Source: Prevotella sp. (GTDB taxonomy: Bacteria > Bacteroidota > Bacteroidia > Bacteroidales > Bacteroidaceae). From it: a stretch of DNA of 59,703 nt. A program made the position numbers and the translations under genes. Positions 1,603-32,949 of the stretch are shown here, piece after piece. Position 1 is the first letter of the stretch. Each line of letters starts with the position of its first letter. Under the pieces are notes generated by a model, which saw nothing but the letters and a program-made list of their open reading frames with translations, was not told where the DNA came from and ran no database searches. Location: positions 1 to 59,703 of the forward strand of contig JAFZCU010000229.1 in assembly GCA_017556145.1 (NCBI GenBank). Reading direction: 5' to 3'.

Positions 1603-1629
1603 TCTCACCTCTTACCTCTCACCTCTTAT
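1603..1629. repeat. Heptanucleotide tandem repeat at the 3' end of the SusD2 gene
   Basis: Units TCTCACC, TCTTACC, TCTCACC and TCTTATT follow each other with a period of 7. The last unit contains the stop codon of the minus-strand SusD2 gene (1626-1628). The unit is the same as the one that encodes the signal peptide of the 753-aa FAS1 protein (11128-11155), but in the opposite orientation and outside coding sequence. Confidence 0.8.
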
Positions 1630-3671
1630 TTATACGGCAGATAGCAGTTCTGCGTGGTGATGCCTGCAGCATTGTTCTCCAGCTTACGGCTGAGCCACTT
1701 GTCGCCGAAGCCGCCACCGTAGATGCCCGACTGGTTCTTGTGGAGCGCCAGACGGCGGAGGTCGGAGAAGCGGGTGCCCTCGAAGGCAAACTCCATGGCA
1801 TACTCATCACACAACAGATCCTCCATCGCATTGATGTAGTCGTCCTTCGTAGGATTCGTCAGACCCAGGCCAAACTGCCTGCTGATATCGGCAATCTTGG
1901 CCGAAACGACGGTGCTGTAACGATAGGAGGAATAGAGATCCTCGACGGCACCGGCACCGTGGAAGTGGATACCGACGAAGGCCTTCGACGCACCATTCTT
2001 GAAGATGTCAGCGTTGGTCTGGGCCAGGAACGGCAGACGGGTAGTGAGCAGTTCGTAAGACTCGGGGGTAAGATAATACTTGTCGTCGATATGCGACTGC
2101 GTCATATCAAGCACCTTATGACCACTCTCATCAATAGAGTCGTTGCCAGCCTGATCCTTCAGGAAAATCTCCTCATAACGGTAGTTGGCCAACTCGGAGT
2201 GCAGACCATTCTTCAGCACGGCGAAGGCGGCATCGGGATAACCCATGCGGTTGATAGCCTCAGCCAGGTGGAGCCAGACGGTGGCATTGCGATAAAGCAG
2301 GATATAGGCCGTAGAAGGCTTGTAGGTGTAGACATAAGCGGAGTCGGCACCCTCGCCCTGACAGATCATCGAGGCACGGGCATCGCCGAGGGGCTCGCTG
2401 CGGACTATCCAGTTGAAGGGCGCCACCTTGACCTGCTCGGTATAGTAATAATACCGAGCACGGCGTGCTGAGTCGCAATAGGCCTGTGAAGGCACCACCT
2501 GGATATCCTGCGTCTTGGGACAGTTGAAGATATTCTCCATCGGGTCGTCGACATTGACGGCGCTGGCACGCTCGGTGCCATAGTAGTTATAACCGAAGGC
2601 AGCAGGGATGTCGGTGGTCTGACCCATGGTGTAGTTGACAGCCATCGGGATATAAGAGATCACGTCGCCGGGCGCTGCACTATGCTGGAAGGAGTTCTCC
2701 CACATGGGCATCTGATTGTAGAGGGAAGAATTCTTCTGCTCGTTATAGTCGACCGGCCACTCCAGGAAGTCCTTGAAGATGGGGCTGTAGCGGCTGTAAT
2801 TAGGCGACATCATATCATTATAGTTCACGGAGATATTCGCGCTGTTGTTCAGGCCCTCATATCGCAGATACTGATAATAGCAGGTTGCAGCCTTCTCGTA
2901 TTCGCCCAGTTCGAGGTAGATGTCACCCAACACGACATTGAGCGGGATGAAGCACTTGCTGGGACGGATAAACTTCTCCTCATTACCCCAGTTGAGCATA
3001 CCTGCCGAGCGCGAACTCTGGTTGAAGGTAGGCACGGCAATCTGCTCGTCACTATAGCGGGCCTTGAGGGTTTCGAGCATCTGTGCCTCGCTCTGGAGGA
3101 TGCCCTCATAGCTGGTCATTGAGGTGTTGGCATTGATCTGCGCAATGGTGGTGACGGGCTCTGTGATGTAAGGCACAGCACCATACTGACGGGCGAGCTG
3201 CAGATAGGTCCATGCACGGAACGACGCCACGGCGGCATATTCGTTGCAGACTACGTTGCGGGCGCCTGTGGCGAGCGTGGTGTCGCGATGGGCCAAATAG
3301 TAGTTGCAGTTGTTGATGACCTTGTAATAAAGGTACACACTGTCGTACTTATTGGTGGCATCAGCCGTGAACGATGCCAGATCGCGCAGGTGCATGGAGG
3401 CCTTGTCGGTGGGTTTCACCAGCTCGCCACGCATCTCGTTCTGGAAGTAATACTGGTCGGCCAGTTGCTGCATGGCCTGCATGATGCCATAGGCATAGAA
3501 GACGGAGTCGGTCTTCTGGTCGAGTGCCGGTTCGAACAACTGACGGGAGCTGTCGGACTCAAGCATATCGGAGCAGGAAGTAAGGAGAGAAGGAGTTGAG
3601 GAGAGAAGGAATAAGTAGAATACTCCTGCCATGAAAAGCCTCACCCATTTCTTATTATTAATTCTATTCAT
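1626..3671 (-). CDS. SusD/RagB-family outer-membrane lipoprotein (SusD2)
   Basis: Surface glycan-binding lipoprotein expected to cap the TonB-dependent transporter encoded just upstream (SusC2). The 681-aa product starts MNRINNKKWVRLF and has a lipoprotein signal ending LLTSC, with acidic residues (SDMLESD) after the cysteine that fit a surface-export signal. The body has the SusD pattern: a helical N-terminal region with TPR-like segments (VCNEYAAVASFRAWTYLQLARQYG), a middle glycan-binding region, and a C-terminal DLLCDEYAMEFAFEGTRFSDLRR motif typical of RagB/SusD. An in-frame ATG five codons upstream lies inside an 8-bp repeat leader, so I place the start at 3671. Last gene of the seven-gene operon; the ligand is probably an RG-I fragment, judged from the neighbours only. 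Confidence 0.93.
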   Translation of the reverse strand: MNRINNKKWVRLFMAGVFYLFLLSSTPSLLTSCSDMLESDSSRQLFEPALDQKTDSVFYAYGIMQAMQQLADQYYFQNEMRGELVKPTDKASMHLRDLASFTADATNKYDSVYLYYKVINNCNYYLAHRDTTLATGARNVVCNEYAAVASFRAWTYLQLARQYGAVPYITEPVTTIAQINANTSMTSYEGILQSEAQMLETLKARYSDEQIAVPTFNQSSRSAGMLNWGNEEKFIRPSKCFIPLNVVLGDIYLELGEYEKAATCYYQYLRYEGLNNSANISVNYNDMMSPNYSRYSPIFKDFLEWPVDYNEQKNSSLYNQMPMWENSFQHSAAPGDVISYIPMAVNYTMGQTTDIPAAFGYNYYGTERASAVNVDDPMENIFNCPKTQDIQVVPSQAYCDSARRARYYYYTEQVKVAPFNWIVRSEPLGDARASMICQGEGADSAYVYTYKPSTAYILLYRNATVWLHLAEAINRMGYPDAAFAVLKNGLHSELANYRYEEIFLKDQAGNDSIDESGHKVLDMTQSHIDDKYYLTPESYELLTTRLPFLAQTNADIFKNGASKAFVGIHFHGAGAVEDLYSSYRYSTVVSAKIADISRQFGLGLTNPTKDDYINAMEDLLCDEYAMEFAFEGTRFSDLRRLALHKNQSGIYGGGFGDKWLSRKLENNAAGITTQNCYLPYK
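3583..3614. repeat. Octanucleotide tandem repeat inside the SusD2 signal peptide
   Basis: Plus-strand units AGGAGAGA, AGGAGTTG, AGGAGAGA and AGGAATAA, period 8. On the coding strand this pyrimidine-rich block encodes the hydrophobic core (FLLSSTPSLL) of the lipoprotein signal. Confidence 0.85.
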
Positions 3672-3674
3672 AAT

Positions 3675-3697
3675 TCTTATGTTCATATGTTTTATGT
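3675..3697. repeat. Octanucleotide repeat leader before SusD2
   Basis: Plus-strand units TCTTATGT, TCATATGT and TTTATGT (the last is 7 nt) sit directly upstream of the start codon. On the coding strand they read as A-rich ACATAAGA-type units. The same leader precedes SusD1 and two of the FAS1 genes. Confidence 0.85.
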
Positions 3698-3722
3698 CTA
3701 AAAAATCATCCGTTCCTATGTC

Positions 3723-6700
3723 TTACAAGTTAATCTTGACGCCCATGGAGAAGTTGCGGCCCTGAGCGATGTTGCCACAGTCGATGCCCTGATAGAGCTG
3801 GCTGTTGCTGGCAGAGAACTCGGGATCGCTGCCCGTATACTTGGTAAGGGTCAGGAGATTGCCGCCCTCTGCCCATACGGAGATACCCTGCAGCCACGAC
3901 TGCCACGACTCAGGAATAGGAATCTGATAAGAGAGGCGTACGTTCTTCAGACGCAGGTAGGAGCCGTCCTCGATCCAACGGTCGGAGAAGCGGTTGTTGC
4001 CCATGGGGTCGCCATAGCTGACGCGTGGGAGCGTGGCCTGCTGTCCTTCATAACGCCAATGGCCGATCTCTGCCACCTGCTGGTTGTAGAGCGTAGAACC
4101 GCTGTTAAGGATGGCGCGCTCGTAGTTATAGACATCGTTGCCCAGACTGTAGTTGCAGTTCACACCAAGTGTGAAGCGTTTCCAGTTGAGGTTGAGGAAG
4201 ATGTTACCATAAAGATCGGGGTTGGGGTCGCCGATGACGGTCTTGTCGTTCTCATCAATCTGTCCCAGGGCATTGGCACCACGGGTATTGGTAGGATTGA
4301 GATCCTCGAAGATGACATCGCCGGCAGCGAAATACTGCTTGACGCCCGTCTCGTCGATGATATAGAGGTTGGCAGCCTGTGCAGCCTCTGTGGTCGGGAA
4401 GACACCCTTGGTCTTGTAGCCATAGAACACGCCCACCGGGTTGCCCACGGCTGTCAGGATATTGTCTGAACCATAGATGGATGAGGTGTAATTGCCGTTT
4501 GCCAAGGCCTTGACCTCGTTCTTATAGTGGCCTACGGTGGCTCCGACTTCAAGGCTCAGGTCGCGGGTGGCAATGGGTTTGCCGTTGATGCCCACCTCAA
4601 AACCGGTGTTACTGATCTCACCATCGTTCGTCCAATAGTTGTTGATACCACCAATGGGATTCTCAAAGCTCTTCAGCGCCAACAGGTCTTTCGTGCTGTG
4701 GATGAAATAGTTGGCACTGATGCCCAGACGGTTGTTGAGGAAATTAGCCTGCAAGCCGATATTCAGCTTCGACGTGGTTTCCCACTTGATTTCCTCGTTA
4801 CCCACATTGGTGAGCTGCATACCGATCTCGGTGTAGTTGTAGCGCACGGTATTGAACGAGGTACGGGCGGCATAGTTGCTGATGCCGTCGTTACCGCTCA
4901 TGTCGAAGCCGACATTCAGGCGCAGGTAGTCGATGGCGGTGTTCTTCGGGAACCAGTTCTCGTTGGTCAGCACCCAACCCAGCTGCACGCTGGGGAAGAT
5001 GGCCCATTTCACGCCAGCCAACTTCACGCCGCCGTTGGCATTGCTGCCGAAACGGCTGTTAGATTCTGCCAGCAGAGAGACGGTGGCGAAGTATTTGTTC
5101 ATATAGTTATAGTCGCCAGAGACATACCACTGCATATTCTTCCAGACATCATCAGCACCCTTAACGGTAGAATAGACATCGTTACCCGTCGCGAGCTTCG
5201 GGTTCTTATCATCCTCGAGCTTCGTGGAGTACTGCGTAGCGAGGTCGCTGTTGTCAAAGGAGAAGTAGGTATAGCGGAAGCCACCCATCGCGGCGATGCT
5301 GTGCGCACCGAACATCTTGTTCCAGTCGAGGTGGGTATTGCTCAGCACGTTGATCTCCTTGGAGAAGATAGAGGCCGTCTTGGAATAGACCGTACCCAGG
5401 TTTTCGATCTCGAAGGAAGGCAGTCCGATGTTAGGACGGTAATAGGCCTGTGAGTTACGATTGAGGTAGTAACTGAAATGAGAAGTCAGTTTCCAATCCT
5501 TGTTGATCTCGTAGGTAGGTGTCAGCGTCACGTTGAAGAAGGTGTTCTCATTACGGTTCTTACGCTCGCCGCTACCATTTTGCAGCAATGCCAAGGGGTT
5601 GGCCTGCGAATAGTTGCCATCCTCCAGGGTGCTGTAGAGGTCGTCGGCATCAGCCAGCAGCGAAGTGAAGTCGTTGATATTCTTGTTATACTGATAGGGA
5701 TTGAGCAGGGGGCTCTTGATCAGTGCCAGGAACGCAGGCGAGGTAATGACACCGGCATTCAGGTCGGCAGCGATACCATCGTCGAAGAGGTTCGTATTAG
5801 AACGTGAGAACGACATATCGAATTTCGTCGTGAGATTCCACAACAGCTTGATATCCGTATTGAAGCGGACGTTAATGCGGTCGTAGCTGGTCGACTTGAT
5901 ATTCTTCATCGTCTGGATGTAAGCCACAGAGAGGTTATACATACCAATATCGTCACCACCCTGCACATTGATGCTGTAGTTATGCGTCAGCGCCGTGCGA
6001 TATACATAGTCGCTCCAATTGGTGTCGTTATGGTATGTCTGGTAATAATAGCCGTCCTTGGCATCGTTGAGGAAATTGAACAACAGCGGGTTGGTCAACG
6101 AGCCGATGCGCTGCTGTACCTCAGGAATGGTACCGAGCTGCTCAACGGCATAGTTACGATATTGTGCCGCATTCATCATGGTAGGATACTGGGGCACGAA
6201 GGTCCACCCTACCCCGAGCTTGGCATCGATACGCGTTGCCATCGAGTGACCGCGCTTGGTGTCGATGAGAATGACACCGTTGGCACCACGGGCACCATAG
6301 AGGGCTGTGGCATTCTTCAGCACCGTCACCTTGTCGATATCCTCAGGAGAGATGGTAGACAGCATATTGAAGATGTCGCCCAGATGCAGCGACGGTCTGT
6401 TCTGCTGCATATCAAGTTCCACACCATCGAGGATGACGAGGGGCTGGGCATTGGCATTGAGTGAGCTGATACCACGGATAAACATGGCAGCACCCTGCTC
6501 AAGGTTGCCGGAATGCATGTTCATGCGGATGTCGCCACCCAACTTCTCGGTCATCTCCTCATCGATGGAAAGGCCCTTGCCATTGGAAACGAAACTGTTC
6601 CGGGCCGTTATCGTGGTGCCATCCTCATACATGGGAGAGAAGGCATCGCTCAAAAGGCTGATCTGCACCTGCTGGGTGGAATCACCGGCGAGAATGGCGA

Positions 6701-7025
6701 CCTGCTGCGACATGTACTTCGGCGACTGCACAAAGAGAGCAGTGGCAAAGGTGGGCACCTTGATGGTGAACTTACCGTCGGCATCGGTCATGGCCGCATA
6801 ACGGTTGTCGTTGAGGGTCTTCAGACGCACACCTGCCAGAGGTGTCTTCGTGGCAGCGTCGACCACAACACCTCGCACATTGATGGTCGGATTCTTGTCG
6901 ACAACCTGAGCGCGCTTAGGTGCCTTGAAGGTCGTAGAAGTCTCTTCCTCATCGAACTCATCCTGCGCAAAAGCCACTGGGCTTGCTGCGAGGAATGCAA
7001 TCATAAATAGAAATATCTTTTTCAT
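3723..7025 (-). CDS. SusC/RagA-family TonB-dependent outer-membrane transporter (SusC2)
   Basis: Energy-dependent importer of oligosaccharides across the outer membrane, paired with SusD2 downstream. The 1100-aa product has a Sec signal (MKKIFLFMIAFLAASPVAFAQ), an acidic spacer, a carboxypeptidase-D-like regulatory domain (about residues 48-125: NVRGVVVDAATKTPLAGVRL and on), then the plug domain with the SusC signatures MFIRGISSLNANAQPLVILDGV and ATALYGARGANGVILI (about 180-260), and a long beta barrel. It ends GRNFSMGVKINL, a usual barrel end. The regulatory domain shows a TonB/ExbB-powered uptake system; an ExbB gene begins at the right edge of the window. A heptad repeat leader precedes the start codon. 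Confidence 0.95.
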   Translation of the reverse strand: MKKIFLFMIAFLAASPVAFAQDEFDEEETSTTFKAPKRAQVVDKNPTINVRGVVVDAATKTPLAGVRLKTLNDNRYAAMTDADGKFTIKVPTFATALFVQSPKYMSQQVAILAGDSTQQVQISLLSDAFSPMYEDGTTITARNSFVSNGKGLSIDEEMTEKLGGDIRMNMHSGNLEQGAAMFIRGISSLNANAQPLVILDGVELDMQQNRPSLHLGDIFNMLSTISPEDIDKVTVLKNATALYGARGANGVILIDTKRGHSMATRIDAKLGVGWTFVPQYPTMMNAAQYRNYAVEQLGTIPEVQQRIGSLTNPLLFNFLNDAKDGYYYQTYHNDTNWSDYVYRTALTHNYSINVQGGDDIGMYNLSVAYIQTMKNIKSTSYDRINVRFNTDIKLLWNLTTKFDMSFSRSNTNLFDDGIAADLNAGVITSPAFLALIKSPLLNPYQYNKNINDFTSLLADADDLYSTLEDGNYSQANPLALLQNGSGERKNRNENTFFNVTLTPTYEINKDWKLTSHFSYYLNRNSQAYYRPNIGLPSFEIENLGTVYSKTASIFSKEINVLSNTHLDWNKMFGAHSIAAMGGFRYTYFSFDNSDLATQYSTKLEDDKNPKLATGNDVYSTVKGADDVWKNMQWYVSGDYNYMNKYFATVSLLAESNSRFGSNANGGVKLAGVKWAIFPSVQLGWVLTNENWFPKNTAIDYLRLNVGFDMSGNDGISNYAARTSFNTVRYNYTEIGMQLTNVGNEEIKWETTSKLNIGLQANFLNNRLGISANYFIHSTKDLLALKSFENPIGGINNYWTNDGEISNTGFEVGINGKPIATRDLSLEVGATVGHYKNEVKALANGNYTSSIYGSDNILTAVGNPVGVFYGYKTKGVFPTTEAAQAANLYIIDETGVKQYFAAGDVIFEDLNPTNTRGANALGQIDENDKTVIGDPNPDLYGNIFLNLNWKRFTLGVNCNYSLGNDVYNYERAILNSGSTLYNQQVAEIGHWRYEGQQATLPRVSYGDPMGNNRFSDRWIEDGSYLRLKNVRLSYQIPIPESWQSWLQGISVWAEGGNLLTLTKYTGSDPEFSASNSQLYQGIDCGNIAQGRNFSMGVKINL

Positions 7026-7026
7026 C

Positions 7027-7053
7027 TAACTATAAACTCTAAACTATAAACCA
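7027..7053. repeat. Heptanucleotide repeat leader before SusC2
   Basis: The gap between the upstream stop codon (7058) and the SusC2 start (7025) is mostly 7-bp units on the plus strand: TAAACTC, TAAACTA and TAAACCA, plus a shortened TAACTA next to the ATG. The same unit forms the leader of SusC1. Confidence 0.8.
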
Positions 7054-7057
7054 TCAA

Positions 7058-8908
7058 CTAATTAGCCCATAAGTCGTTATAATCCTTCGGAACGAGATAG
7101 ACACCAGCCACACGCATCAGTTGGTCGTATTTCTGACGGTTGGCAGAAGAGGTGTAACTCTTGGTGTGCATCATCATCAGGCTGGGATAAGCATCCAGTC
7201 CGTAATAGCAGGCCGGGAAGGTAAACTCGCCGAGGTCGAAGACATTGACACGGCCGGGATCGCCCAGATAAGTCAACGTAGCAGTGCTCTCACCGTTGTC
7301 GGTGGTCATCTCTATCGAAGACTTGGCACCATTCGGCAGTACGGTGTACTGTTGTTTATTGGCAGCATCCGTCCAACTGAGGAAGAAGCGCAGGTAGTAT
7401 GGTTTCACAACTCTCATAGGTTCCTCTACCTGTGCCGGAACGGTGACGACATAGATGTGATAGGTTGTGGAGCGTACCCCTCTCAGGGCAAAGTTAAACT
7501 CCGGCTTACCCGTCGTACCATCGATATTGGCATCGTCAACCGCGACATAAGAGAAGAAACGCGAGGTTTTAGGAAGAATCATCTGACGTAACATGGGAGG
7601 TACTTTGGAAAAGAGACTGTCGCGTCCAGCCAGACTGTCCAGGGGGATGTTATGGGTGGTGAGTTTCGTCACCTTCATCGTATAAATCCTATCGCTGTAG
7701 TCTCTGACTGAAGGCGACCATTCAATGATGGGATTATACGTCTCCCAAGAACTAAAGGGGAATGCGTCGATGGTGCGCGTGATACCATTACTCATCTCGC
7801 TGATGGCGGTTGTGTGATCCAGAACCACCTGCATATTGGTAAGATGACTGCCACTGGTAGTATAGGCCGTATCAGTGGGTGCAAAGGCGCCATTGCCGAA
7901 GAGCGGCTGATTGCCCTTGTACCAATTCGAGAAGACGAGGTTGCTGACGATGTTACGAGAGGTCAGAGAGTCCTGCAGTTCACCGTCGGTCTCGGCAGCC
8001 TTGTCAGCCTTGGCATCGGTGGCCTTCAACGAAGAGGCAACCAGTGTCTTCTTCTCCAGATCCATATAGTCCATCTTCGGAATGTAGTTGTAGCAGGGAT
8101 TGATGGCAGCATAAGCCTCATTCCATGCCTGGTCGCTGGGAACGAGCATGCAGAAAGTGCTATCCTCATCCTCGAGGTCGGCACGCATGATGGAACGGAT
8201 GACGTTATTGCGCTTCTTCATCACAGAGTCGAGATAGGTCTGTTTGCCATCGCGAAGCGGGCCGATGACGGAGGCGTTGACATCAAGGTAGTACTCATCG
8301 TATTTCTGGATGTAGTTCTTGATCAGGTCACAGCCTGCGAGATTGTCGATGTTCTCGTAGAGGTTGGGGTAAAACTCCGATACGCCATTCAGCTTGTGCA
8401 TCACGCCATTGGAGGCAGGAATGTTGATGTCGCCATAGGAAATGCCATCGAACGATGCCTGCGTGAAGGGATGGTGCTTGGCATTGAGCGAGATGATCGT
8501 CGTGCCTGCAAGCGCACTGGATATGGGATAGTTGTACTCCGTCATGTGCTGCTGTAAGAACTGCTTGACGATAGTGGCACTATCGCTTGCCTTCAGACGA
8601 TTGTATTCCGCATCGCTGAAGGCAGCATCCACAGGCGCCCAGACAGTATAGAACCGCGGGCTGTTGAGTGCCTCAGAGAATTTGCTTTGCTGGGCAAGCG
8701 CAGCAAACTTGGTCAGTTGCGGGTCACTGGATATATTCTCCCATAACGTTTTGCCGGCACTGGGCTGATCGCCTGCAGACGGCTCTGAGTTGTAATCAGA
8801 ATAGTCAGAGCAACTGGTGAGGAGTAAAGGAGAGAAGGAGAGAAGGAGTAAGTAGAATACACCTGCCGTGAAAAGCCTCACCCATTTCATATAGTTTATC
8901 TTATTCAT
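7058..8908 (-). CDS. FAS1 (fasciclin)-domain lipoprotein, 616 aa
   Basis: Probable surface accessory lipoprotein of the SusCD system. A lipoprotein signal ending LLLTSC is followed by SDYSDYN. Residues ~30-190 form a FAS1 domain with its usual landmarks (FYTVWAPVDAAFSD near the start, NGVMHKLNGVSEFYP at the end). A second, more divergent FAS1-like unit follows (MLVPSDQAWNEAYA … NGITRTIDAF), then a C-terminal beta-rich region (~430-610) that I do not recognise. FAS1 domains mediate adhesion or ligand binding; a role in glycan capture is inferred from the position between two SusC/SusD pairs. Start set at MNKINYMKW because the ATG five codons upstream lies in the 8-bp repeat leader. The first ~30 codons are nearly identical in DNA to those of SusD2. 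Confidence 0.85.
   Translation of the reverse strand: MNKINYMKWVRLFTAGVFYLLLLSFSPLLLTSCSDYSDYNSEPSAGDQPSAGKTLWENISSDPQLTKFAALAQQSKFSEALNSPRFYTVWAPVDAAFSDAEYNRLKASDSATIVKQFLQQHMTEYNYPISSALAGTTIISLNAKHHPFTQASFDGISYGDINIPASNGVMHKLNGVSEFYPNLYENIDNLAGCDLIKNYIQKYDEYYLDVNASVIGPLRDGKQTYLDSVMKKRNNVIRSIMRADLEDEDSTFCMLVPSDQAWNEAYAAINPCYNYIPKMDYMDLEKKTLVASSLKATDAKADKAAETDGELQDSLTSRNIVSNLVFSNWYKGNQPLFGNGAFAPTDTAYTTSGSHLTNMQVVLDHTTAISEMSNGITRTIDAFPFSSWETYNPIIEWSPSVRDYSDRIYTMKVTKLTTHNIPLDSLAGRDSLFSKVPPMLRQMILPKTSRFFSYVAVDDANIDGTTGKPEFNFALRGVRSTTYHIYVVTVPAQVEEPMRVVKPYYLRFFLSWTDAANKQQYTVLPNGAKSSIEMTTDNGESTATLTYLGDPGRVNVFDLGEFTFPACYYGLDAYPSLMMMHTKSYTSSANRQKYDQLMRVAGVYLVPKDYNDLWAN
8820..8851. repeat. Octanucleotide tandem repeat inside the signal peptide of the 616-aa FAS1 lipoprotein
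   Basis: Plus-strand units AGGAGTAA, AGGAGAGA, AGGAGAGA and AGGAGTAA, exact period 8. They encode the core LLLSFSPLLL just before the lipobox. Confidence 0.9.
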
Positions 8909-8911
8909 AAT

Positions 8912-8935
8912 TATTATGTTCATATGTTCTTATGT
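8912..8935. repeat. Octanucleotide repeat leader before the 616-aa FAS1 gene
   Basis: Plus-strand units TATTATGT, TCATATGT and TCTTATGT fill the gap between the stop codon of the upstream gene (8946) and this start codon (8908). Confidence 0.85.
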
Positions 8936-8945
8936 CTAATAAAAC

Positions 8946-11207
8946 TTAGTACCAGTCTTCTGTCATGGTCTGGCTATTGACGATGTCAAGCGGCACCAGC
9001 TCAATGAAGTCGAATGACCAACCGAGGTTGGAGTCGTTCACCAGGTTCTTGATGCGCAGCCAATAGTCCTTACCCTGCTCAAAGCGCTGAGTGGTGATGA
9101 TACGGCGAAGCATCATCGTGCCGTAACCTGATTCTGTGCGACAACTGGTAGAGCCGATAATCTGGCTGGCAGCAGAGTAGATGTCATTCTCATTATAGGT
9201 GAGCGGGTCGGTAACGGTGTTGTATGTACCACGTGAGAAGGATGCCGGAGCGCGCATATAACCACGTACATGCATGCGCTGGTCGCTCTCCACGCCACAG
9301 TCGGATGTTTCATCGTCGGCACGGTTTACAATGTCCTCATAACCAATGGTTGCATCATAGTAGGGGTTGGCACAAGCATCGAAGGGGATGCCGATGGCCA
9401 CCATGTCCGACTGCTTGGAAGTATTGCCTAGATAGAACTGCATCAGTCCACCACGCGCCATCGGCGGATAGATGATACGCAATTCATAATCGCCGGTTGG
9501 CACATGCGGCAGTTTGACGGCGAAGTCGTAGACATCCCATCCCTGGAACTGGTCTGAGTTGTGGGCTCGCCAGGCGCCCATCACGCAGAAACGCAGCAGG
9601 GTTCCCGGATTATAGCAGACGATATTGTCGAAATAGTTATTCTGGAAGGCGATGCGGTTACCGTCACCACCACCATTCAAGGTGCTCACCTCTGCCGGTG
9701 TGGCAAAGCGCAAGCCATTATTAATCAATTCATAAAGGAAGGTGGAAGAATCGAGGCGCAAACGCTCATGGAGTGCATCCCGGGCATTCTGGTCGTACTT
9801 CAAGATACCCTTGATACGATGGATATAGCCGTTCAACGTCTCTATGCTCTTGTTACGGTCAATCGACACACCTTTGAACACCAGCGTATGGTCACCGTCG
9901 TTGGGCATACCGAACATACCAAGTTTCTTGGTCAGCGTGTTGTTGGTCAGATAACGGTTCAACCACAGATCCTTGGTGGTCTTTGGGTTTGTCTCCCACA
10001 CTTTCAGGAGGGTATTGGGCAACATGGTCTCAAAGTACTCCTGCGGCTCGTAGCCGAAGCAGACGTTCCAGGAAGCGTTGGTCTGGGCATTCTTCTCATA
10101 GACGATACGGTCGATAGGCATACCGGCACGCAGGATATGATAAGCCACGAACATATTCACCACATTAAACGGATTGGTATAGTCGTCGCCCGTGCTGATG
10201 GTAATGCTTTTCTCGTTGATATAGTCATACCAGGCGCCGCAATTGCCATACCACTCGATACACTTCTGCTTCAGGTCGTTGAAGTTGTTGATGCCTGCAG
10301 CACGGAACACATCGTCAGTCTCGGCAAAGACGGTCCACTTAATCATACACTCTTTGGGATAATAGATGGAGTTACCATCACGGTCGTTATGGTTGTTACC
10401 CAAGTCGTAAGTCATGGCTGTGCCGTCAGCATTGTTCTTGCGCTCAATCATGAGGGTGTCGGCATAGCCCGTTACCTCAAGGGCTGAATAGAAGATGCTG
10501 AGGTCTTTCTCGCCCTCCACACGCAACTGGTCATCGGTAGTGCGGTCGGAACGTGGAATCACATTCGAGCAGATATGCAGGATGCCGTTGATGGCCTCAA
10601 TATCGCCGTCGATAATAGCAGAGATGTCGTTGAGACTGGTGAGACCAATGAATTCCTCCTTATAGGCATCCTCACCGAAGGTGCCGACACGAATGCTACG
10701 ACCTGTCTTCATAGTGGTCCATGTGGTGGCAGTACCATCGAGGTCTACCTGCATGTGTTCCTCACCGGAGAGATGGAAACGTGCGATATCGTCACACAGA
10801 GAGTCGGACATCAGTTCTACCTTTGCCATCACGTCAAGACTATTCCAGTTGGCATCCTCGGTAATACCGTTGTGCTTCAGTTTGGCCTTGGAGATGAGGT
10901 AGGACTCATCGTTATAAAGACTGTCGAGGTAAGTGTTCACACCGTCGTTCAGCGGTGCAAAACAGGTATATTCACCATAGGTTCCCATATACTTGTCGAA
11001 CTTGCCCTTCTCCAGAATACGGTAGAACGCAGTCAGGTCAGACCGGTCACGCAGCATTTCTGCGATGGTCTTCTGATCTGAGGAGAAAAGGTTAGAGCCA
11101 TCCGGTTCCTCATTACAAGAGATAAAGAGGTAAGAGGTAAGAGGTAAGAGGTAAGAGAATACCATTACCATGAGCCTCACCCAATTTTTATTGTTTATCT
11201 TATTCAT
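8946..11207 (-). CDS. FAS1 (fasciclin)-domain lipoprotein, 753 aa
   Basis: Surface lipoprotein candidate of the SusCD operon. The signal is MNKINNKNWVRLMVMVFSYL continuing LPLTSYLFISC, followed by the acidic NEEPDGS. Two FAS1-like units are visible: the first runs from DRSDLTAFYRILEKG and YTCFAPLNDGV to INGILHICSNVIPR (about residues 45-225); the second from IKWTVFAETDDVFRAAGI to LNGYIHRIKGILKYD (about 285-480). The remaining ~270 residues are beta-rich (GDYELRIIYPPMARGGLMQFYLG) and end in YWLRIKNLVNDSNLGWSFDFIELVPLDIV, which looks like a jelly-roll carbohydrate-binding type fold; that is a guess from style. Follows SusD1 with a 27-bp gap filled by 8-bp repeats. Its signal peptide contains a perfect (AGGTAAG)4 repeat. 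Confidence 0.85.
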   Translation of the reverse strand: MNKINNKNWVRLMVMVFSYLLPLTSYLFISCNEEPDGSNLFSSDQKTIAEMLRDRSDLTAFYRILEKGKFDKYMGTYGEYTCFAPLNDGVNTYLDSLYNDESYLISKAKLKHNGITEDANWNSLDVMAKVELMSDSLCDDIARFHLSGEEHMQVDLDGTATTWTTMKTGRSIRVGTFGEDAYKEEFIGLTSLNDISAIIDGDIEAINGILHICSNVIPRSDRTTDDQLRVEGEKDLSIFYSALEVTGYADTLMIERKNNADGTAMTYDLGNNHNDRDGNSIYYPKECMIKWTVFAETDDVFRAAGINNFNDLKQKCIEWYGNCGAWYDYINEKSITISTGDDYTNPFNVVNMFVAYHILRAGMPIDRIVYEKNAQTNASWNVCFGYEPQEYFETMLPNTLLKVWETNPKTTKDLWLNRYLTNNTLTKKLGMFGMPNDGDHTLVFKGVSIDRNKSIETLNGYIHRIKGILKYDQNARDALHERLRLDSSTFLYELINNGLRFATPAEVSTLNGGGDGNRIAFQNNYFDNIVCYNPGTLLRFCVMGAWRAHNSDQFQGWDVYDFAVKLPHVPTGDYELRIIYPPMARGGLMQFYLGNTSKQSDMVAIGIPFDACANPYYDATIGYEDIVNRADDETSDCGVESDQRMHVRGYMRAPASFSRGTYNTVTDPLTYNENDIYSAASQIIGSTSCRTESGYGTMMLRRIITTQRFEQGKDYWLRIKNLVNDSNLGWSFDFIELVPLDIVNSQTMTEDWY
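11128..11155. repeat. Perfect (AGGTAAG)4 heptanucleotide repeat in a signal peptide
   Basis: Four identical 7-bp units at 11128-11134, 11135-11141, 11142-11148 and 11149-11155 (plus strand). On the coding strand three units encode one turn of the heptapeptide SYLLPLT. Because 7 is not a multiple of 3, a gain or loss of one unit would shift the frame of the rest of the protein. Confidence 0.95.
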
Positions 11208-11210
11208 AAT

Positions 11211-11234
11211 ACTTATGTTCTTTTGTTCTTATGT
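11211..11234. repeat. Octanucleotide repeat leader before the 753-aa FAS1 gene
   Basis: Plus-strand units ACTTATGT, TCTTTTGT and TCTTATGT fill the whole 27-bp gap between the SusD1 stop codon and this start codon, apart from three bases. Confidence 0.9.
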
Positions 11235-13004
11235 CTAATACTTCGAAGCAGATTTGTATACAGGATTCTGTACAAGACTGGTATTGATTTCCACCTCGTC
11301 CTGATTGATAGGCATGTAGAGATAACGCTCGTCACGCATCTTAGCCTTCATGGCAGTGGGTACGGCATACTTACGCAATGCCAACTCAAAGAACACATCA
11401 CTGTTGGTGACATAGCTCTCTGTCAGCTTCTTGGTCAGGTCTGCCTGTTTCTCTGTGTGACGATAGTTGTAACGCATCAGGTCGAACCAGCGTTTGCCCT
11501 CGAAGCACAACTCACGCGCACGCTCGGCCAGTACCAGTTCCTCCATCTTGTCTCTGTAGACAGAATACTTCATGCCGTAAGAGCCCTTGTTGGCATCAGA
11601 GAGCGCACGGTCGTTGATGAGCTTACAGATAGCAAATGCCTCCTCGTTGCGCGAATCGCCTTCGGCCTTACCACCCATGTTGTAGAGCTGCACAAGGGCC
11701 TCAGCCTTCATCAGCATCACGTCAGTCAGACGATACAGAATCCAATTCTGATAGACTGCAGAACGGGTGTCGCGCTTGCTGTCGGCACTATTGTTGGTTC
11801 CTGCCGATGCGGTTGCCACGAATTTGCGGACGCCAAACTGCTCGGTATTCGTACTGGCGGCATCGTAGAGATATTCATAGAGGCGCTGATCCACGCTGTT
11901 GGTCCAGACACCATTACCGGTTTGATCCACTTTTCCATAGATCGGTGCCGCCTTCAGATAGCCATAACCGTTGCTGCTGGCATTGTTATAGCGGAAATAC
12001 ATCTGGTCGAGACCGGTATTGGTGGCGTTAGAGTTACGGAACTGCAACTCGAAGATGCTCTCGTCGGCATTCTGTCCCGTCTGTCCAAAGATGTCAGCAT
12101 ACATATTGTTATATTCGGAAAGATAGTAATCCTTCTCCACTTCATCACCATATCGACGGCGGCGAGGATTCTCTTCGTAGGCTGTCTTCTTGGCCTGGAT
12201 CACTCTGTCGCAATAGTCCACACATGCTTCATAATCGCTCGCATCACGGTTGACAGAAGCACGCCAGAGATAGATGTCGGCCAGAATGGCATTGATACCG
12301 TCCTGATTCAGGTAGCCCTTGTCGCGCCAGTCACCATAGGTTGAACCAGAGATGGCATATTTAGAAGCCTCTTTCAGGTCATTGATACACATGTTGAGGA
12401 CAGAGTCAGGATTTGCCTGCGGGGCATTCAGATCGTCACTACTGTTCAGGTAGGCGCCCGGCGTCACAGGGATGTCATGGAATACCTTTGTGAGGTAGAA
12501 GTAACAGAATGCGCGCAAAGCTAACATCTGAGCCTTGTTGGCGTCATAGTCACCCCGCGTATAGTCCGGGTCAACAGCTATCACACCCTCAGCCTTCTCT
12601 AATACCAGGTTGCAGTAGTTGATGGCAGAATAGAACGGATACCAGGAGGTAAACGCATTCTCTGTCTCGATGTTGCAGGAATAGATCTGCGCCAAAGCTG
12701 TCTTGTAGGTCGCAGAGGAAGGCAATGTGGAAGTCACCACGAGTTCATCGGAACGGAAGTCACCCCAAATAATCATATTGCGTATGGCAGAAGCATCACG
12801 CAACTGTGCGTAGGCCGTTGCTACAACGGCATCCACTTCGCTTTTCTTCTGCCAATAGTCGTCATCGACGGTCTTGTTGTCAGGCAAAATCACCGTATCG
12901 ACACAGCTGGTGAAGAGGAGACAGGAGACAGGAGTCAGGAGACTGTAGATCACACCTGCCATGAAGATCCTCACCCGATTTTTATAATTTGTCTTCGTAT
13001 TCAT
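11235..13004 (-). CDS. SusD/RagB-family outer-membrane lipoprotein (SusD1)
   Basis: Glycan-binding partner of SusC1, which is encoded directly upstream. The 589-aa product has a lipoprotein signal (MNTKTNYKNRVRIFMAGVIY, then SLLTPVSCLLFTSC) and typical SusD landmarks: DDDYWQKKSEVDAVVATAYAQLRD and the N-terminal helical part, DANKAQMLALRAFCYFYLTKVFHDIP (TPR-like helix with the usual RAxxYxxLxxxFGxVP pattern), and a C-terminal region with ELVLAERARELCFEGKRWFDLMRYNYRH, the strongest RagB/SusD signature. It ends INQDEVEINTSLVQNPVYKSASKY, again usual for the family. The position after SusC in the same operon is the standard order. Which RG-I fragment it binds cannot be told from sequence. Confidence 0.95.
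   Translation of the reverse strand: MNTKTNYKNRVRIFMAGVIYSLLTPVSCLLFTSCVDTVILPDNKTVDDDYWQKKSEVDAVVATAYAQLRDASAIRNMIIWGDFRSDELVVTSTLPSSATYKTALAQIYSCNIETENAFTSWYPFYSAINYCNLVLEKAEGVIAVDPDYTRGDYDANKAQMLALRAFCYFYLTKVFHDIPVTPGAYLNSSDDLNAPQANPDSVLNMCINDLKEASKYAISGSTYGDWRDKGYLNQDGINAILADIYLWRASVNRDASDYEACVDYCDRVIQAKKTAYEENPRRRRYGDEVEKDYYLSEYNNMYADIFGQTGQNADESIFELQFRNSNATNTGLDQMYFRYNNASSNGYGYLKAAPIYGKVDQTGNGVWTNSVDQRLYEYLYDAASTNTEQFGVRKFVATASAGTNNSADSKRDTRSAVYQNWILYRLTDVMLMKAEALVQLYNMGGKAEGDSRNEEAFAICKLINDRALSDANKGSYGMKYSVYRDKMEELVLAERARELCFEGKRWFDLMRYNYRHTEKQADLTKKLTESYVTNSDVFFELALRKYAVPTAMKAKMRDERYLYMPINQDEVEINTSLVQNPVYKSASKY
12917..12944. repeat. Heptanucleotide tandem repeat inside the SusD1 signal peptide
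   Basis: Plus-strand units GGAGACA, GGAGACA, GGAGTCA and GGAGACT, period 7. They encode the core SLLTPVSCLL of the lipoprotein signal, so an extra cysteine (PVSC) stands upstream of the real lipobox FTSC. Confidence 0.9.
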
Positions 13005-13009
13005 AATTC

Positions 13010-13033
13010 TCTTTTGTTCTTATGTTCTTATGT
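13010..13033. repeat. Octanucleotide repeat leader before SusD1
   Basis: Plus-strand units TCTTTTGT, TCTTATGT and TCTTATGT, exact period 8, lie between the SusC1 stop codon and the SusD1 start codon. On the coding strand they read ACATAAGA, ACATAAGA, ACAAAAGA. Confidence 0.9.
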
Positions 13034-13041
13034 CTAAAAAT

Positions 13042-16000
13042 TTAGAAGCCGAAGCTCAGGCTGGCTGTGATAGATTTAGACCTTGGTGTGGTCGCACCGT
13101 CAGAGGCTGGCGTATAGGTTCCGGAGGCAATTTCCGGATCAATACCAGTGTACTTCGTCCAGCAGAAGAGGTTGTTCATTGTCACATAAGCCGAGAGAGA
13201 GTTCAGACCAAGTTTCTTGATCTTATTCTTGGGTACGCTGTAAGAGAGTTGCAGGTTGTTGAAACGCAGGAATGAGCCGTCCTCCACAAAACGTGAGCTC
13301 ACCTGATAGTTATAGCCTGTTCCGTAGAGTGCGCGTGGTATCACTGTCACGTCACCATCCTTACGCCAGCGGTAGGTAACCGATGAGCACTGGTTCTCTG
13401 TACCATACATGCTCTCCAGGCCCATACGTGCCGTATTGATAATCTTATTACCCCAACGGAAGTTGAAACGTGAGATCAATCTCCAGTTACCATACTGCAA
13501 AGTGAAGCTGAAACCGCCCTGCATCTTTGGCAGTGAATTACCAAGATACTTGATATCGAGCTCATTGATAGTACCATCGTGATTCACATCCTCGTAGATG
13601 GCATCACCACCCTTGAACTCATATTCAGTATCGCCATAATAATAAGTAAGGTGCTTGGGCACACCGGTATTCGTCATGATCACCTTACCCTCTTCATCGG
13701 TAGCCACGGGGAATGTCTTACCCTCAGCAAGCTGCTGGTTGATCCATGCCTCATAGTTCCACTCGTAAGACTCGCCACGGGCTGCAGCCTGCGACTGCAA
13801 CTGGAGTTGCTTCGTGTTATAATTGGTCAGGTAATCGTAAGTATACTGGAAAACGCCTAAGCTATTGAATCCGTAGATGGAGCAAAGCGGGTCACCCACC
13901 ACAACGCGGCTGAGGATGGATCTGGAACCACGGTTACCCCAACTGGGCTGTGAGTTCAGATTGTCGAGTACACGCTGGTCCATCTCGAGCAACTTATTGA
14001 CGTTCTGGGCCAAGTTGACACTGGCAGAGACTGAGAACTTCTTAATCTTGACAAACCGATTCGCCGTAACCGACAACTCCCAACCTTTGTTCTCCATCTC
14101 ACCCACATTTCCGAACGAGAGTGTGGTGGATGTGTTCCATGTAGCTGAGGTGGGAATAGGTATTTTCTGCATAATCAGATCCTTGGTATTCTCCTTATAG
14201 AGGTTCAGGTCGAACTCGAACATATCGTTGAGGAGGCCTACGTTGAAGCCAAGGTTCACACCCGTCTTCTTCTGGGGACGCAGGTCATCGAGCTTCATAC
14301 CGCTCATTGTGGTGTAGTAGCTGGTTCCGTAGCGTCCGGCACGTGAATTGTACTGGTTGAAGTAATTGTCAACAGAGACACTGGAACTACCTGTTATACC
14401 CCATGAACCACGAATACCGAACATTGACACAATATTACGCAAAGGTGTAAAGAAAGCCTCTTCGCTGAGATTGTAACGCAATGAAACCGAGGGCGAAATG
14501 AACCACGGATTCTTAGGACCGAACTTTGAGTTACCATCAGCACGCAGTGAGAAGCCTACATTGTAACGCGACTTATAAGAGAAGTGGGCGTTATAGACGG
14601 CGTTCTGCCAGGCCGACTTGGTAGTACCGGGCTGGTTGTCCATACTGATCAGACTGGCATCGATGGTAGCCGACTCTATACCATTAGGTATGGCGTTCTG
14701 ACCGATATACTGGTAGGTATTCTTCTGTGTACCAGCCTCATAACGTGCCAACATCGTCAGATTAAAATCTTCATTCTTGAAGGCCGGCGTAAAGATCAGT
14801 TCCAGACGAGAGCCCATCTTGAACTGGTTGGATTCCGTATTCGTGATAAAGTTATAATCACTATCGGTATAACTGCCGTTAGAGAGACTTCCCGGCATAT
14901 AAGTAGGCTTCGAATAAGCATAGATGTCAAAGTAGACACGGCCATTGAAAGTCAGACGGGTCTGTCCGTTTCCTGTACCGAGCAACTCGTACTTGATGTT
15001 GAAGTCGGGCACGATGCTGTAGGTCTTTTCCTTCTGCCATGATCTGTTGGCATAGGCCACAGGGTTACCGATGGCTACGACGTCGGACAGCTGTTCGGAA
15101 GTGTAGTTTCCGTCATCAGGCGTCATGCCGCTCACCGTCGGGTTCATCAGAAAATACTCACCCGTGTTGTTATTATACTGGTCCATGCGCCAGATGCTGG
15201 CATTCGGTGCCATCGTCAAGGCCATTGCCAGCAGATTGTTATGGGAACCGCTGCTCTTGCTGCTACCATAAGTATAATTCTTCAGGTTGTCGGTATAGGT
15301 CAACGCGAAGTTGGTAGAGAAGCGGATGCGGTCAGACACGTTGTAGTCGAGGACCAGGCGTGTTGTCAATCGATCCATCTTCTGTTTGATGATGGTTCCC
15401 AACTGGTGGCTGTAGCTACCGGAAATACGGAAAGTGGCTTTCTGACCACCACCGGAGATATTGAAGTTGGCCTCATGCTGTTCACCGAACTGCTTGATAG
15501 CGCCTACCCAATCGGTGTTCTTGTTCCAGTTGTTAGCCTCAGCCCACGACTCTGCGGGAATATAGTTGATCTCGTTGATGGTCGAGGTGGCAGAACTGCT
15601 CTGTGTGGGGTTGTAGAACTCCTCCTTGAGCATCATGGTGTAGTTGTCACCATTGAGCAGGTCGTAGCCGGCAGGCATCCAGGTGCCGGTGAACTTATAG
15701 CCCAGCGTCACCTTTGGTTTTCCGCGTGCACCACGCTTGGTGGTAATCTGAATCACACCATTGGCACCCTGCGATCCCCAGATGGCCGTAGCGGCGGCAT
15801 CCTTCAAGACGGTGATGTTGGCGATATCATCCACACTCACAGCGAGCAGCGACGAGAAGGCCTCCTCATCGATATTCTCAGGATCGAAGTCGGCCTTATC
15901 ATATTCAAAGATCTTGTCGTCGACCACAATCAGCGGTTCTGCGTTACCACTCAGCGTTGACACACCACGCAGACGCATGGACGTTCCAGCACCGAGGTTA

Positions 16001-16494
16001 CCTGAATTGCTGACGATATCCAGACCGGCAATCTCACCTTGCAGAGCCTCATCGGCAGAGGTGAAGGCCATACCATCCACCTTGTCCATGCTGAAGGTCT
16101 GCTGAGAAACGGAAATCTCGCGCTTGTCAATATTCAGACCGCCAGAACTGGTGCGACGTCCCTTGACTACGACTTCAGATACGGTCGTATTCTCACTTTC
16201 CATCTTGATATTGAAAGTGGTCTGGTTGCCGATATTTACAATCTTGGTTTTATTGCCTACATAAGAAAATACAAGTTTATTCTTAGGGTTCTTAATCTCC
16301 ATGGAGAAGTTACCCATCATATCAGTCTGTGTAGCGCTGACGATACGATTGTTAGCGTCACGCTCCACCACGTTGGCCATCATGATCGGCCCCATGGCAT
16401 CTTCCACCGTACCTGATATGACTTTACTCTGTGCCATCATCGTCTGCGCAATGACAGTGAACAGGAGCGTCAATAGGAATTTATATTTTGACAT
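13042..16494 (-). CDS. SusC/RagA-family TonB-dependent outer-membrane transporter (SusC1)
   Basis: Outer-membrane oligosaccharide importer paired with SusD1. The 1150-aa product has a Sec signal ending MMAQ, a carboxypeptidase-D-like domain (KVISGTVEDAMGPIMMANVV, residues ~23-105), a linker VSEVVVKGRR that resembles the TonB-box/plug entry, and a plug domain with SMRLRGVSTLSGNAEPLIVVDD and AAATAIWGSQGANGVIQI, the hallmark SusC motifs. The barrel ends SITASLSFGF with a terminal phenylalanine, the usual BAM recognition end. It lies 39 bp downstream of the 962-aa FAS1 gene, and the gap is a heptad repeat. Compared with SusC2 the barrel sequences are quite different, so the two pairs probably handle different ligands (inference). 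Confidence 0.95.
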   Translation of the reverse strand: MSKYKFLLTLLFTVIAQTMMAQSKVISGTVEDAMGPIMMANVVERDANNRIVSATQTDMMGNFSMEIKNPKNKLVFSYVGNKTKIVNIGNQTTFNIKMESENTTVSEVVVKGRRTSSGGLNIDKREISVSQQTFSMDKVDGMAFTSADEALQGEIAGLDIVSNSGNLGAGTSMRLRGVSTLSGNAEPLIVVDDKIFEYDKADFDPENIDEEAFSSLLAVSVDDIANITVLKDAAATAIWGSQGANGVIQITTKRGARGKPKVTLGYKFTGTWMPAGYDLLNGDNYTMMLKEEFYNPTQSSSATSTINEINYIPAESWAEANNWNKNTDWVGAIKQFGEQHEANFNISGGGQKATFRISGSYSHQLGTIIKQKMDRLTTRLVLDYNVSDRIRFSTNFALTYTDNLKNYTYGSSKSSGSHNNLLAMALTMAPNASIWRMDQYNNNTGEYFLMNPTVSGMTPDDGNYTSEQLSDVVAIGNPVAYANRSWQKEKTYSIVPDFNIKYELLGTGNGQTRLTFNGRVYFDIYAYSKPTYMPGSLSNGSYTDSDYNFITNTESNQFKMGSRLELIFTPAFKNEDFNLTMLARYEAGTQKNTYQYIGQNAIPNGIESATIDASLISMDNQPGTTKSAWQNAVYNAHFSYKSRYNVGFSLRADGNSKFGPKNPWFISPSVSLRYNLSEEAFFTPLRNIVSMFGIRGSWGITGSSSVSVDNYFNQYNSRAGRYGTSYYTTMSGMKLDDLRPQKKTGVNLGFNVGLLNDMFEFDLNLYKENTKDLIMQKIPIPTSATWNTSTTLSFGNVGEMENKGWELSVTANRFVKIKKFSVSASVNLAQNVNKLLEMDQRVLDNLNSQPSWGNRGSRSILSRVVVGDPLCSIYGFNSLGVFQYTYDYLTNYNTKQLQLQSQAAARGESYEWNYEAWINQQLAEGKTFPVATDEEGKVIMTNTGVPKHLTYYYGDTEYEFKGGDAIYEDVNHDGTINELDIKYLGNSLPKMQGGFSFTLQYGNWRLISRFNFRWGNKIINTARMGLESMYGTENQCSSVTYRWRKDGDVTVIPRALYGTGYNYQVSSRFVEDGSFLRFNNLQLSYSVPKNKIKKLGLNSLSAYVTMNNLFCWTKYTGIDPEIASGTYTPASDGATTPRSKSITASLSFGF

Positions 16495-16533
16495 AATCTC
16501 TAATCTCTAAACTATAAACTTTAAACTTCAAAC
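16495..16533. repeat. Heptanucleotide repeat leader before SusC1
   Basis: The entire 39-bp gap between the stop codon of the upstream gene and the SusC1 ATG is 7-bp units on the plus strand: AATCTC, TAATCTC, TAAACTA, TAAACTT, TAAACTT and CAAACTT. It shares the TAAACTN unit with the SusC2 leader. Confidence 0.9.
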
Positions 16534-32894: not shown

Positions 32895-32949
32895 ACTGTT
32901 TTTAAATAATTTATTAATAATGATTGAATAATAGGCTCATAAATCGGTG

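Follow-up and report, generated by a model that had tools for sequence, protein, structure and literature searches.

We analysed a stretch of 59,703 nucleotides from Prevotella sp. (GenBank assembly GCA_017556145.1, contig JAFZCU010000229.1, positions 1 to 59,703; the whole stretch is called the window below), in which four lipoproteins, two SusD proteins and two fasciclin proteins, have the hydrophobic core of their signal peptide encoded by tandem repeats of 7 or 8 bp. These four arrays belong to a population of short tandem repeats, with units of 7 bp and in some cases 8 bp, that extends across the genome. The signal regions that contain them (leader, n-region, core and lipobox) are common to unrelated lipoprotein genes of a genome and are replaced between sister species. 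The turnover of the arrays, their placement across genes and the likeness of signals within a genome lead us to the explanation we regard as likely, namely that genome-wide 7- and 8-bp arrays together with exchanged 5' modules build and replace the cores of lipoprotein signals.

Signal-core arrays and their replacement between sister species

The four lipoprotein genes and the parts of their signal regions are the following.

1626..3686, minus strand, SusD2 lipoprotein gene (PF14322, PF07980)
3584..3611, minus strand, SusD2 signal-core array of degenerate 8-bp units; 13-mer CTCCTTCTCTCCT twice, 16 bp apart
3612..3671, minus strand, SusD2 n-region module, ATGAATAGAATTAATAATAAGAAATGGGTGAGG...GGCAGGAGTATTCTACTTA, with counterparts in the other three lipoprotein genes
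3672..3701, minus strand, SusD2 5' leader, (ACATAAGA)-like 8-bp units
7058..8923, minus strand, FAS1-616 fasciclin lipoprotein gene (PF02469)
8820..8848, minus strand, FAS1-616 signal-core array, (CTCCTTCT)n, peptide LLLSFSP
8849..8908, minus strand, FAS1-616 n-region module
8909..8939, minus strand, FAS1-616 5' leader, 8-bp units
8946..11207, minus strand, FAS1-753 fasciclin lipoprotein gene (PF02469)
11125..11157, minus strand, FAS1-753 signal-core array, (CTCTTAC)4.7, peptide LLPLTSY
11158..11207, minus strand, FAS1-753 n-region module
11208..11238, minus strand, FAS1-753 5' leader, 8-bp units
11235..13004, minus strand, SusD1 lipoprotein gene (PF07980, PF14322)
12916..12941, minus strand, SusD1 signal-core array, (CTCCTGT/A)n, peptide LLTPVSC
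12945..13004, minus strand, SusD1 n-region module
13005..13037, minus strand, SusD1 5' leader, 8-bp units

A first-pass annotation of the window had reported four copies of a short unit in each of these signals, an observation that is partly confirmed. The arrays do lie in the hydrophobic core of the lipoprotein signal in all four genes, on the minus strand and at the coordinates corrected above. The number of four copies is right for FAS1-753, where the array is a perfect CTCTTAC repeat of 4.7 units, and for SusD1 (about four units, 90% match), and roughly so for FAS1-616 (2.8 perfect 8-bp units with degenerate flanks). It does not hold for SusD2, in which period-8 matches amount to 71% and which is better read as the repeated 13-mer.

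The 21 residues before the cysteine were recoded synonymously, using the codon usage of either the genome or the signal peptides, and scored for period 7/8. The observed score was reached in 0 of 20,000 recodings for FAS1-616 and in 0 of 20,000 for FAS1-753, and was matched by 0 or 1 of 20,000 for SusD1. Chance codon use, named at the first pass as one of two results that would count against the idea, is thereby excluded for these three. For SusD2 the score was matched by 449 or 764 of 20,000 recodings, which rules out a clean four-unit array in this gene; its 16-bp repeat (best score at any period from 4 to 20) was matched by 0 or 1 of 3000. The SusD2 core is a degenerate relative of the FAS1-616 core, and leader and n-region of the two genes are 89% identical, so that the SusD2 array stands by this likeness and the other three stand alone. 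Leaders plus n-regions of the four unrelated genes are 72-89% identical in their DNA and so represent copies of one 5' module; an independent gain of the array in each gene is ruled out by these common parts.

FAS1-753 was found in 24 of the 119 genomes searched (the window's own included), and all four lipoprotein genes are present in the 20 relatives whose stretch was taken. Two rumen drafts with the locus, Prevotella sp. RGIG9705 (L121; 85.1% identity over 12.7 kb) and RUG10880 (L122; 84.3% over 17.9 kb), encode proteins 80-95% identical to those of the window, but their signals are not. The SusD1 signal is made of CTCCTGT in the window, CTCCTTCT in L121 and ATTGGTT in L103, and it has no array in L122, L101, L102, L123 and L124. 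The FAS1-753 signal consists of CTCTTAC in the window and L121 and of CTCCTGT in L122. For FAS1-616 we find CTCCTTCT in the window, CTCTTAC/CTCTCAC in L121, degenerate CTCCTTCT in L122 and ATTTATC in L103. Cores also change places between genes: the exact 31-bp FAS1-616 core of the window is the core of SusD2 in L122, the 27-bp SusD1 core of the window is found in FAS1-753 of L122, and a nearly identical signal is common to FAS1-753 and SusD2 in L103. The mature protein is little changed while its signal is replaced. The earlier proposal that the repeats belong to the signal region and not to the protein is borne out by these orthologs, in which the same place holds a different array or no array. 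Repeat DNA as a way of building signal peptides is likewise supported; the part of the first interpretation that found no support is phase variation, discussed below.

The likeness of signals within a genome was quantified with 103 of 108 gene-genome pairs from 27 genomes (three pairs without a lipobox pattern and two SusD2 genes without a usable match were dropped). The mean local alignment score was 25.5 for different genes of the same genome, 21.0 for orthologs and 17.2 for different genes of different genomes. If genomes were permuted within genes the mean was 17.5 (highest 20.7), and 0 of 2000 permutations reached the observed value. The eight closest genomes gave 37.6, 27.3 and 20.3 for the same three classes, with a permuted mean of 22.4 (highest 33.6) and again 0 of 2000 reaching the observed value.

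We further report three side observations on signal regions. In L103 the SusD1 gene (7206-8978) and a gene of 1110 residues in the SusC position (13192-16524) have in common the end of the leader, the n-region and an (ATTGGTT)n core; the signal of the latter does not look like that of a lipoprotein (TVIGYWLLVIG...AFAQ), so that exchange may not be confined to one class of signal peptide. A lipoprotein signal on contig C156 (L090, about 2490-2651) carries the exact FAS1-616 core array and, judged by eye, a PACRLLPQGRKN insert in the n-region. Another dispersed family of CCCCTCC...GGAGGGG type (by eye) serves in sister species as the signal core of FAS1-753 (L108) and of SusD1 and SusD2 (L115) and as an insert in SufE (L204).

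A genome-wide array population and its read strand

The population was counted in a sample of 40 stretches, 586 kb of the 3.46 Mb of the window's genome, one half (20) obtained by stepping through the contig list and the other (20) from long contigs, 18 of them on contigs matched in an earlier search. At a score of at least 12 the sample holds 59 arrays of period 7, 5 of period 8, none of period 6 and 7 of period 9, and one dinucleotide shuffle of it holds none at any of these periods; together with the window, 63 period-7 arrays occur in 646 kb. The 59 fall into 24 unit classes, the commonest with 8 members. If the score is lowered to at least 11 and the window is included, 49 of 88 period-7/8 arrays lie outside called genes and 39 inside. 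As called genes (open frames by a simple length rule) cover 92.5% of the sampled sequence, the arrays concentrate between genes.

Two samples of the window's genome have 107 and 98 period-7 arrays per Mb, and seven near relatives 90.6. Around the locus the density is 71 in 20 genus relatives. It is 47 in Prevotella-type relatives, 32 in six outgroup loci, with three of the four arrays from one Pinibacter locus, 8 in Bacteroidaceae drafts and 0 in 107 kb of Paraprevotella. The trait is thus pronounced in this rumen lineage, while the genus as a whole does not show it evenly.

Lipoprotein signals, picked by a simple lipobox rule, are one site of the arrays. A period-7/8 array (score of at least 10) was found in 6 of 68 signals of the sampled genome, where recoded signals gave 0.00, and in 16 of 301 signals of named relatives (73 of 80 loci, L194-L200 left out), where they gave 0.25; mature-gene windows taken as control gave 0.05 and 0.15. 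Signals have no array of period 6 in either set, and 0 and 1 of period 9. Because there is an excess over recoding at periods 7 and 8 and nothing at period 6, the arrays arise at the DNA level and not from protein selection alone. Several units recur across species, namely ATTGGTT (VIGYCLLVIG), ATTCTTC (FFILHSSFFIS) and ATTTATC (FIICHLSF) as well as CTATTCA, CTCTTTA and CATTGTA. The FAS1-753 region has 46 matches within the window's genome, and the 30 that were opened and classed by eye comprise 9 distinct signal cores, 5 other sense coding sites, 7 intergenic sites, 2 antisense sites, 3 repeats of the same array and 4 matches without array.

The arithmetic of the unit is of importance here. 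Since 7 leaves a remainder of 1 and 8 a remainder of 2 on division by 3, a pure array crosses all three frames and yields a single cycle of 7 or 8 residues in every frame. CTCTTAC is translated to LLPLTSY, CTCCTGT to LLSPVSC and CTCCTTCT to LLLSFSPS, so the earlier remark that the units are stop-free and hydrophobic in any frame is right for pure units. The complement strand yields stops or a hydrophilic cycle, as in AGGAGAC, read RRQETGD.

The placement of arrays goes with the peptide encoded by the read strand, with exceptions: the pyrimidine-rich stop-free strand is found in signal cores, its complement inside other proteins, and stop-bearing units between genes. With the SusD1 region as query 78 matches were obtained, of which 30 were opened (3 signals, 9 antisense coding sites, 2 intergenic sites, 11 repeats of the same array and 5 without array). 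Among these 30, (TGTCTCC)n in sense orientation is a signal core in 3 of 3 cases, and in antisense a hydrophilic RSQESGDRRQ-type stretch in 9 of 9, including one C-terminal case. One and the same 27-bp string occurs in the SusD1 signal core and, on the opposite strand, in SufE. In three pooled sets hydrophobic arrays make up 15 of 21 N-terminal and 11 of 35 internal ones (Fisher p 0.006), and 28% of all heptamers are hydrophobic as a baseline. Stop codons are present in 50 of 60 arrays just upstream of genes versus 8 of 56 in genes.

Heptamer arrays are also carried by SufE, LigA, RpoN, ThiL and MurB of genome G000, which were identified by NCBIfam or Pfam models (SufE lies below the NCBIfam cut-off and above that of Pfam, PF02657). 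They encode ESGDRRQ-, NSQLSTL- or ERGERRE-type stretches.

L091 17743-17922, in-frame heptamer array in SufE
L091 13494-13527, in-frame heptamer array in RpoN
L096 9445-9481, in-frame heptamer array in MurB
L096 17184-17318, in-frame heptamer array in LigA
L034 699-738, in-frame heptamer array in ThiL

For SufE 76 of 80 genomes were matched and 30 loci read. The site has 24-25 residues in 23 of these, 26 in G013, 33 in G031 (21 bp more than G013) and 82 in G000 (168 bp more than G013), both steps being multiples of three 7-bp units. The other four loci have 28, 33, 33 and 43 residues; the longest (G018) holds another dispersed repeat and the two of 33 residues are without heptamers, so the site varies by other means too. 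The LigA stretch of 65 residues in G000 is shorter in 25 of 25 other readable loci, and of 19 other MurB loci 13 have a shorter stretch than the 42 residues of G000, 5 a longer one and 1 a stretch of the same length (loci not fitting the pattern: 10 of 30 for MurB, 4 of 30 for LigA). LigA carries one array in each orientation, 73 bp apart. The SufE and MurB inserts of G000 are tandem heptamers and not a palindromic element with terminal inverted repeats. A second very long GGAGWCA array of 196 bp was seen on contig C146 of G000 (about 32735-32922, in L368), where it encodes nine RSQESGD-type repeats within a long open frame.

Some array signals have the reverse complement of the array upstream (L094, L096, L099, L103, L110, L113, L142, L334, L339), so that the mRNA could fold over the start codon. 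A complementary run of at least 10 nt was found for 14 of 50 signals versus 26 of 232 mismatched pairs of the same genome (Fisher p 0.006), identical arrays being counted once and some loci being the same contig reached twice (e.g. L104 and L143). Same-strand runs of at least 10 occur in 0 of 50 signals, and ten folds gave z-scores from -1.2 to -7.7. FAS1-753 and SusD1 of the window have no complementary run of at least 6 nt between leader and array, which rules out the hairpin as a general function and keeps it as a minority feature elsewhere. FAS1-616 and SusD2 did not enter the hairpin table, where a duplicate and a weak array were removed; their ACATAAG-type leaders, compared by eye, are not complementary to the core.

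The remaining features of the locus, whose Pfam matches are two SusD proteins, two fasciclin proteins and two TonB-dependent receptors, complete a minus-strand order of SusC, SusD1, FAS1-753, FAS1-616, SusC and SusD2.

13042-16494, minus strand, SusC gene, first in this order
3723-7025, minus strand, second SusC gene, between FAS1-616 and SusD2
16492..16535, minus strand, intergenic AGTTTAT-type heptamer array, running to the start codon of SusC 13042-16494
7023..7060, minus strand, intergenic heptamer array GTTTATA/GTTTAGA, between the stop of FAS1-616 and the SusC 3723-7025 start
1603..1626, no strand given, heptamer array of the CTCTYAC family, 3' end of SusD2

Repeats of other kinds occur as well. 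Octamer repeats lie upstream of genes in L015, L019, L020, L021, L029 and L030, in several of these loci as an inverted pair AGACAAAAGAACAAAAGAA ... TATGTTCTTATGTTCTTATGTCT, the arm of which is similar to the repeat in the leaders of the four window genes; they adjoin a TAnnTTTG-like motif which we take to be a promoter. Period-18 arrays of TCTGATTACTCGGAGTAT type (L036 462-519, L042 19039-19088, L043 9927-9967) could be read as acidic SDYSEY-type peptides, and a similar peptide is present in RpoN of L091. Period-11 arrays (AAGGGAAGTTA) form inverted pairs in L041 (1785-1950 and 6061-6215).

Explanations for the arrays

How the arrays could build signals may be pictured as follows. They would start from short seeds and grow through slippage during replication or through template switching, and in coding sequence only changes that keep the frame, i.e. 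of three units, would survive. Selection might then keep those arrays whose read strand suits the place; a pyrimidine-rich array would be a ready-made h-region of a lipoprotein and be kept in signals for this reason. Ectopic gene conversion between 5' modules, through the shared n-region, could spread them. The arrays would act as ordinary hydrophobic cores and not as switches.

Several points weigh against this explanation. The majority of lipoprotein signals are without an array of this kind (62 of 68 and 285 of 301), and some signals are shared without one (L102, L111), so that exchange is wider than the repeats and does not need them. In three single-contig genomes of the genus the density is lower, at 27.5 per Mb, and their 400 kb contain no N-terminal array. 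The same small set of unit families comes back at dozens of sites, for which local slippage from random seeds offers no explanation. The strand rule has its exceptions in the 11 hydrophobic arrays among the 35 internal ones and in LigA of G000, where an internal sense stretch of TGACTCC type, outside the 30 opened matches, is read QTPDSRLLTP. The stop-codon part of the rule is in addition circular to some degree, since an open frame was the criterion for calling a gene.

That a small number of unit families turns up again and again, at dozens of sites in one genome, would be accounted for by a dedicated templated or mobile process which inserts heptamer arrays of a few set sequences, similar to Rickettsia palindromic elements (RPEs) but with tandem heptamers. 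We consider such a process rather unlikely. Insertion would fit the in-frame arrays of core enzymes, where many relatives have a shorter site, and the different dispersed repeat at the SufE site of G018; on the other hand neither conserved ends nor terminal repeats nor target duplications were seen, though no systematic test was made, and SufE grades up from a similar short stretch (G013, G031, G000) instead of showing a one-step insertion. A more far-reaching proposal joins the observations: rumen Prevotella would actively write and spread 7-bp arrays as two-faced modules, a frame-independent signal core on one strand and a hydrophilic loop or three-frame stop spacer on the other, with signal peptides born de novo, traded as 5' cassettes and in some cases caged by a complementary leader array that folds over the start codon. 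Taken as a whole this is speculative and rather unlikely.

Phase variation, one of the two readings offered at the first pass, means that slipped-strand changes of unit number move the signal in and out of frame and thereby switch the lipoproteins on and off, as in gonococcal opa. We regard it as unlikely. The 7- or 8-bp pyrimidine-rich units in leader-coding DNA do recall the opa precedent (PMC3960869, PMC3745409), the protein would be cut short 3-55 codons past the array if the number of units changed by one, so that switching is possible in principle, and the unit number of SufE differs between species. Yet the window arrays have about 3-5 units and one alone is perfect throughout, the same array kind is present in SufE, MurB and LigA, genes unlikely to be switched, and the same array, where it was compared, is equal in length with the exception of one copy. 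The FAS1-753 region has the same length in the window and L121, one unit differing by substitution. The stretch from GTATTC to the cysteine measures 48 nt in FAS1-616 and SusD2 of the window, in SusD2 of L122 and in SusD1 of L121, and 51 nt, i.e. 3 nt more, in the fifth copy on contig C156. Array signals among the 103 orthologs are in frame in 20 of 20 cases at a period-7/8 score of at least 9 (17 with an in-frame ATG within 90 nt, three with an ATG further up), though one listed signal at least, that of SusD2 in L117, has little resemblance to a genuine array. Out-of-frame arrays and differences in unit number were sought among the signal orthologs, with one genome per species, and none were found. 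This comparison argues against frequent switching, although it bears on species only and not on populations.

An artefact of assembly or binning of metagenome-assembled genomes is very improbable: the window's genome is indeed a draft of 242 contigs, 82.7% complete, but the same array kinds appear at the same genes in other assemblies, and period-7 arrays are present in single-contig genomes of the genus (11 in 400 kb) as well as in Prevotella communis E15-14, where 21.6 kb of the complete chromosome hold 3 of them. Coincidental codon use in leucine- and serine-rich lipoprotein signals can practically be dismissed, since it could draw on the narrow composition of signal cores and on SusD2, alone within reach of recoding at period 7/8, but is refuted for the other three arrays and for the signal set as a whole by the 6 and 16 arrays seen where 0.00 and 0.25 were expected and by their lack at the codon-friendly period 6 in both sets (0 and 1 at period 9).

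Related repeat systems and a possible origin of signal peptides

Heptamer simple repeats are also known from cyanobacteria as short tandemly repeated repetitive sequences (STRRs), a related class. The closest known system, gonococcal opa, has CTCTT repeats in leader-coding DNA, with a switching rate of about 1 in 1000 per cell per generation (PMC3960869, PMC3745409). The arrays reported here are like opa in being tandem pyrimidine-rich units, of a length that is not a multiple of 3, in DNA coding for a leader peptide. They are unlike it, a pentamer in one gene family with reported high-frequency switching, in being 7- and 8-mers of many sequences in many unrelated genes, with equal unit number between the species compared and with the same arrays also outside signals, there on the opposite strand.

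Repeats of the heptamer TAACTGA are described from marine Beggiatoaceae, some Cyanobacteria and five Bacteroidetes, in sets of two to six copies in the main genome and up to 43 in others, for the most part a short way before start codons (PMC4679880). Both cases have genome-wide 7-bp tandem sets, and the arrays here resemble heptamer simple repeats in their excess over shuffled DNA (59 versus 0 in 586 kb) and their concentration between genes, but in place of one fixed and mostly intergenic unit we observe many unit families, often coding, with signal cores as one site; neither "signal peptide" nor "Prevotella" occurs in the main text of that paper. Heptamers are the commonest class of long simple sequence repeats in many genomes, and slippage linked to a 7-nt polymerase contact has been proposed (Mrazek 2007, as cited in PMC4679880 and PMC4692102); strand-based coding logic and use in signal peptides, as found here, do not figure in the passages on those repeats. 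RPEs are small repeats fused in frame in conserved proteins and also intergenic (PMC2229807). They share with the Prevotella repeats the in-frame extra sequence in conserved genes with sites that are shorter in relatives (SufE and LigA, MurB in part), and they differ, being palindromic elements of 105-146 bp, from tandem heptamers. Among the matches listed in the open-access literature there is no description of heptamer arrays in Prevotella or of heptamer-built or interchangeable signal cores.

Signal peptides are usually treated as inherited with the protein, and here they act as replaceable parts. Species that are about 85% identical at the locus have cores of different simple repeats in front of little changed mature lipoproteins, which offers a concrete way, open to testing, in which repeat DNA could give rise to secretion signals. 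That the same peptide results in every frame suggests why a unit length of 7 or 8 is tolerable in coding DNA, and the dominance of heptamers among bacterial simple repeats becomes accessible to study in core genes such as sufE. In the rumen Prevotella and its sister species, repeat arrays together with exchange may be a way to make and swap signal peptides from simple repeat DNA.

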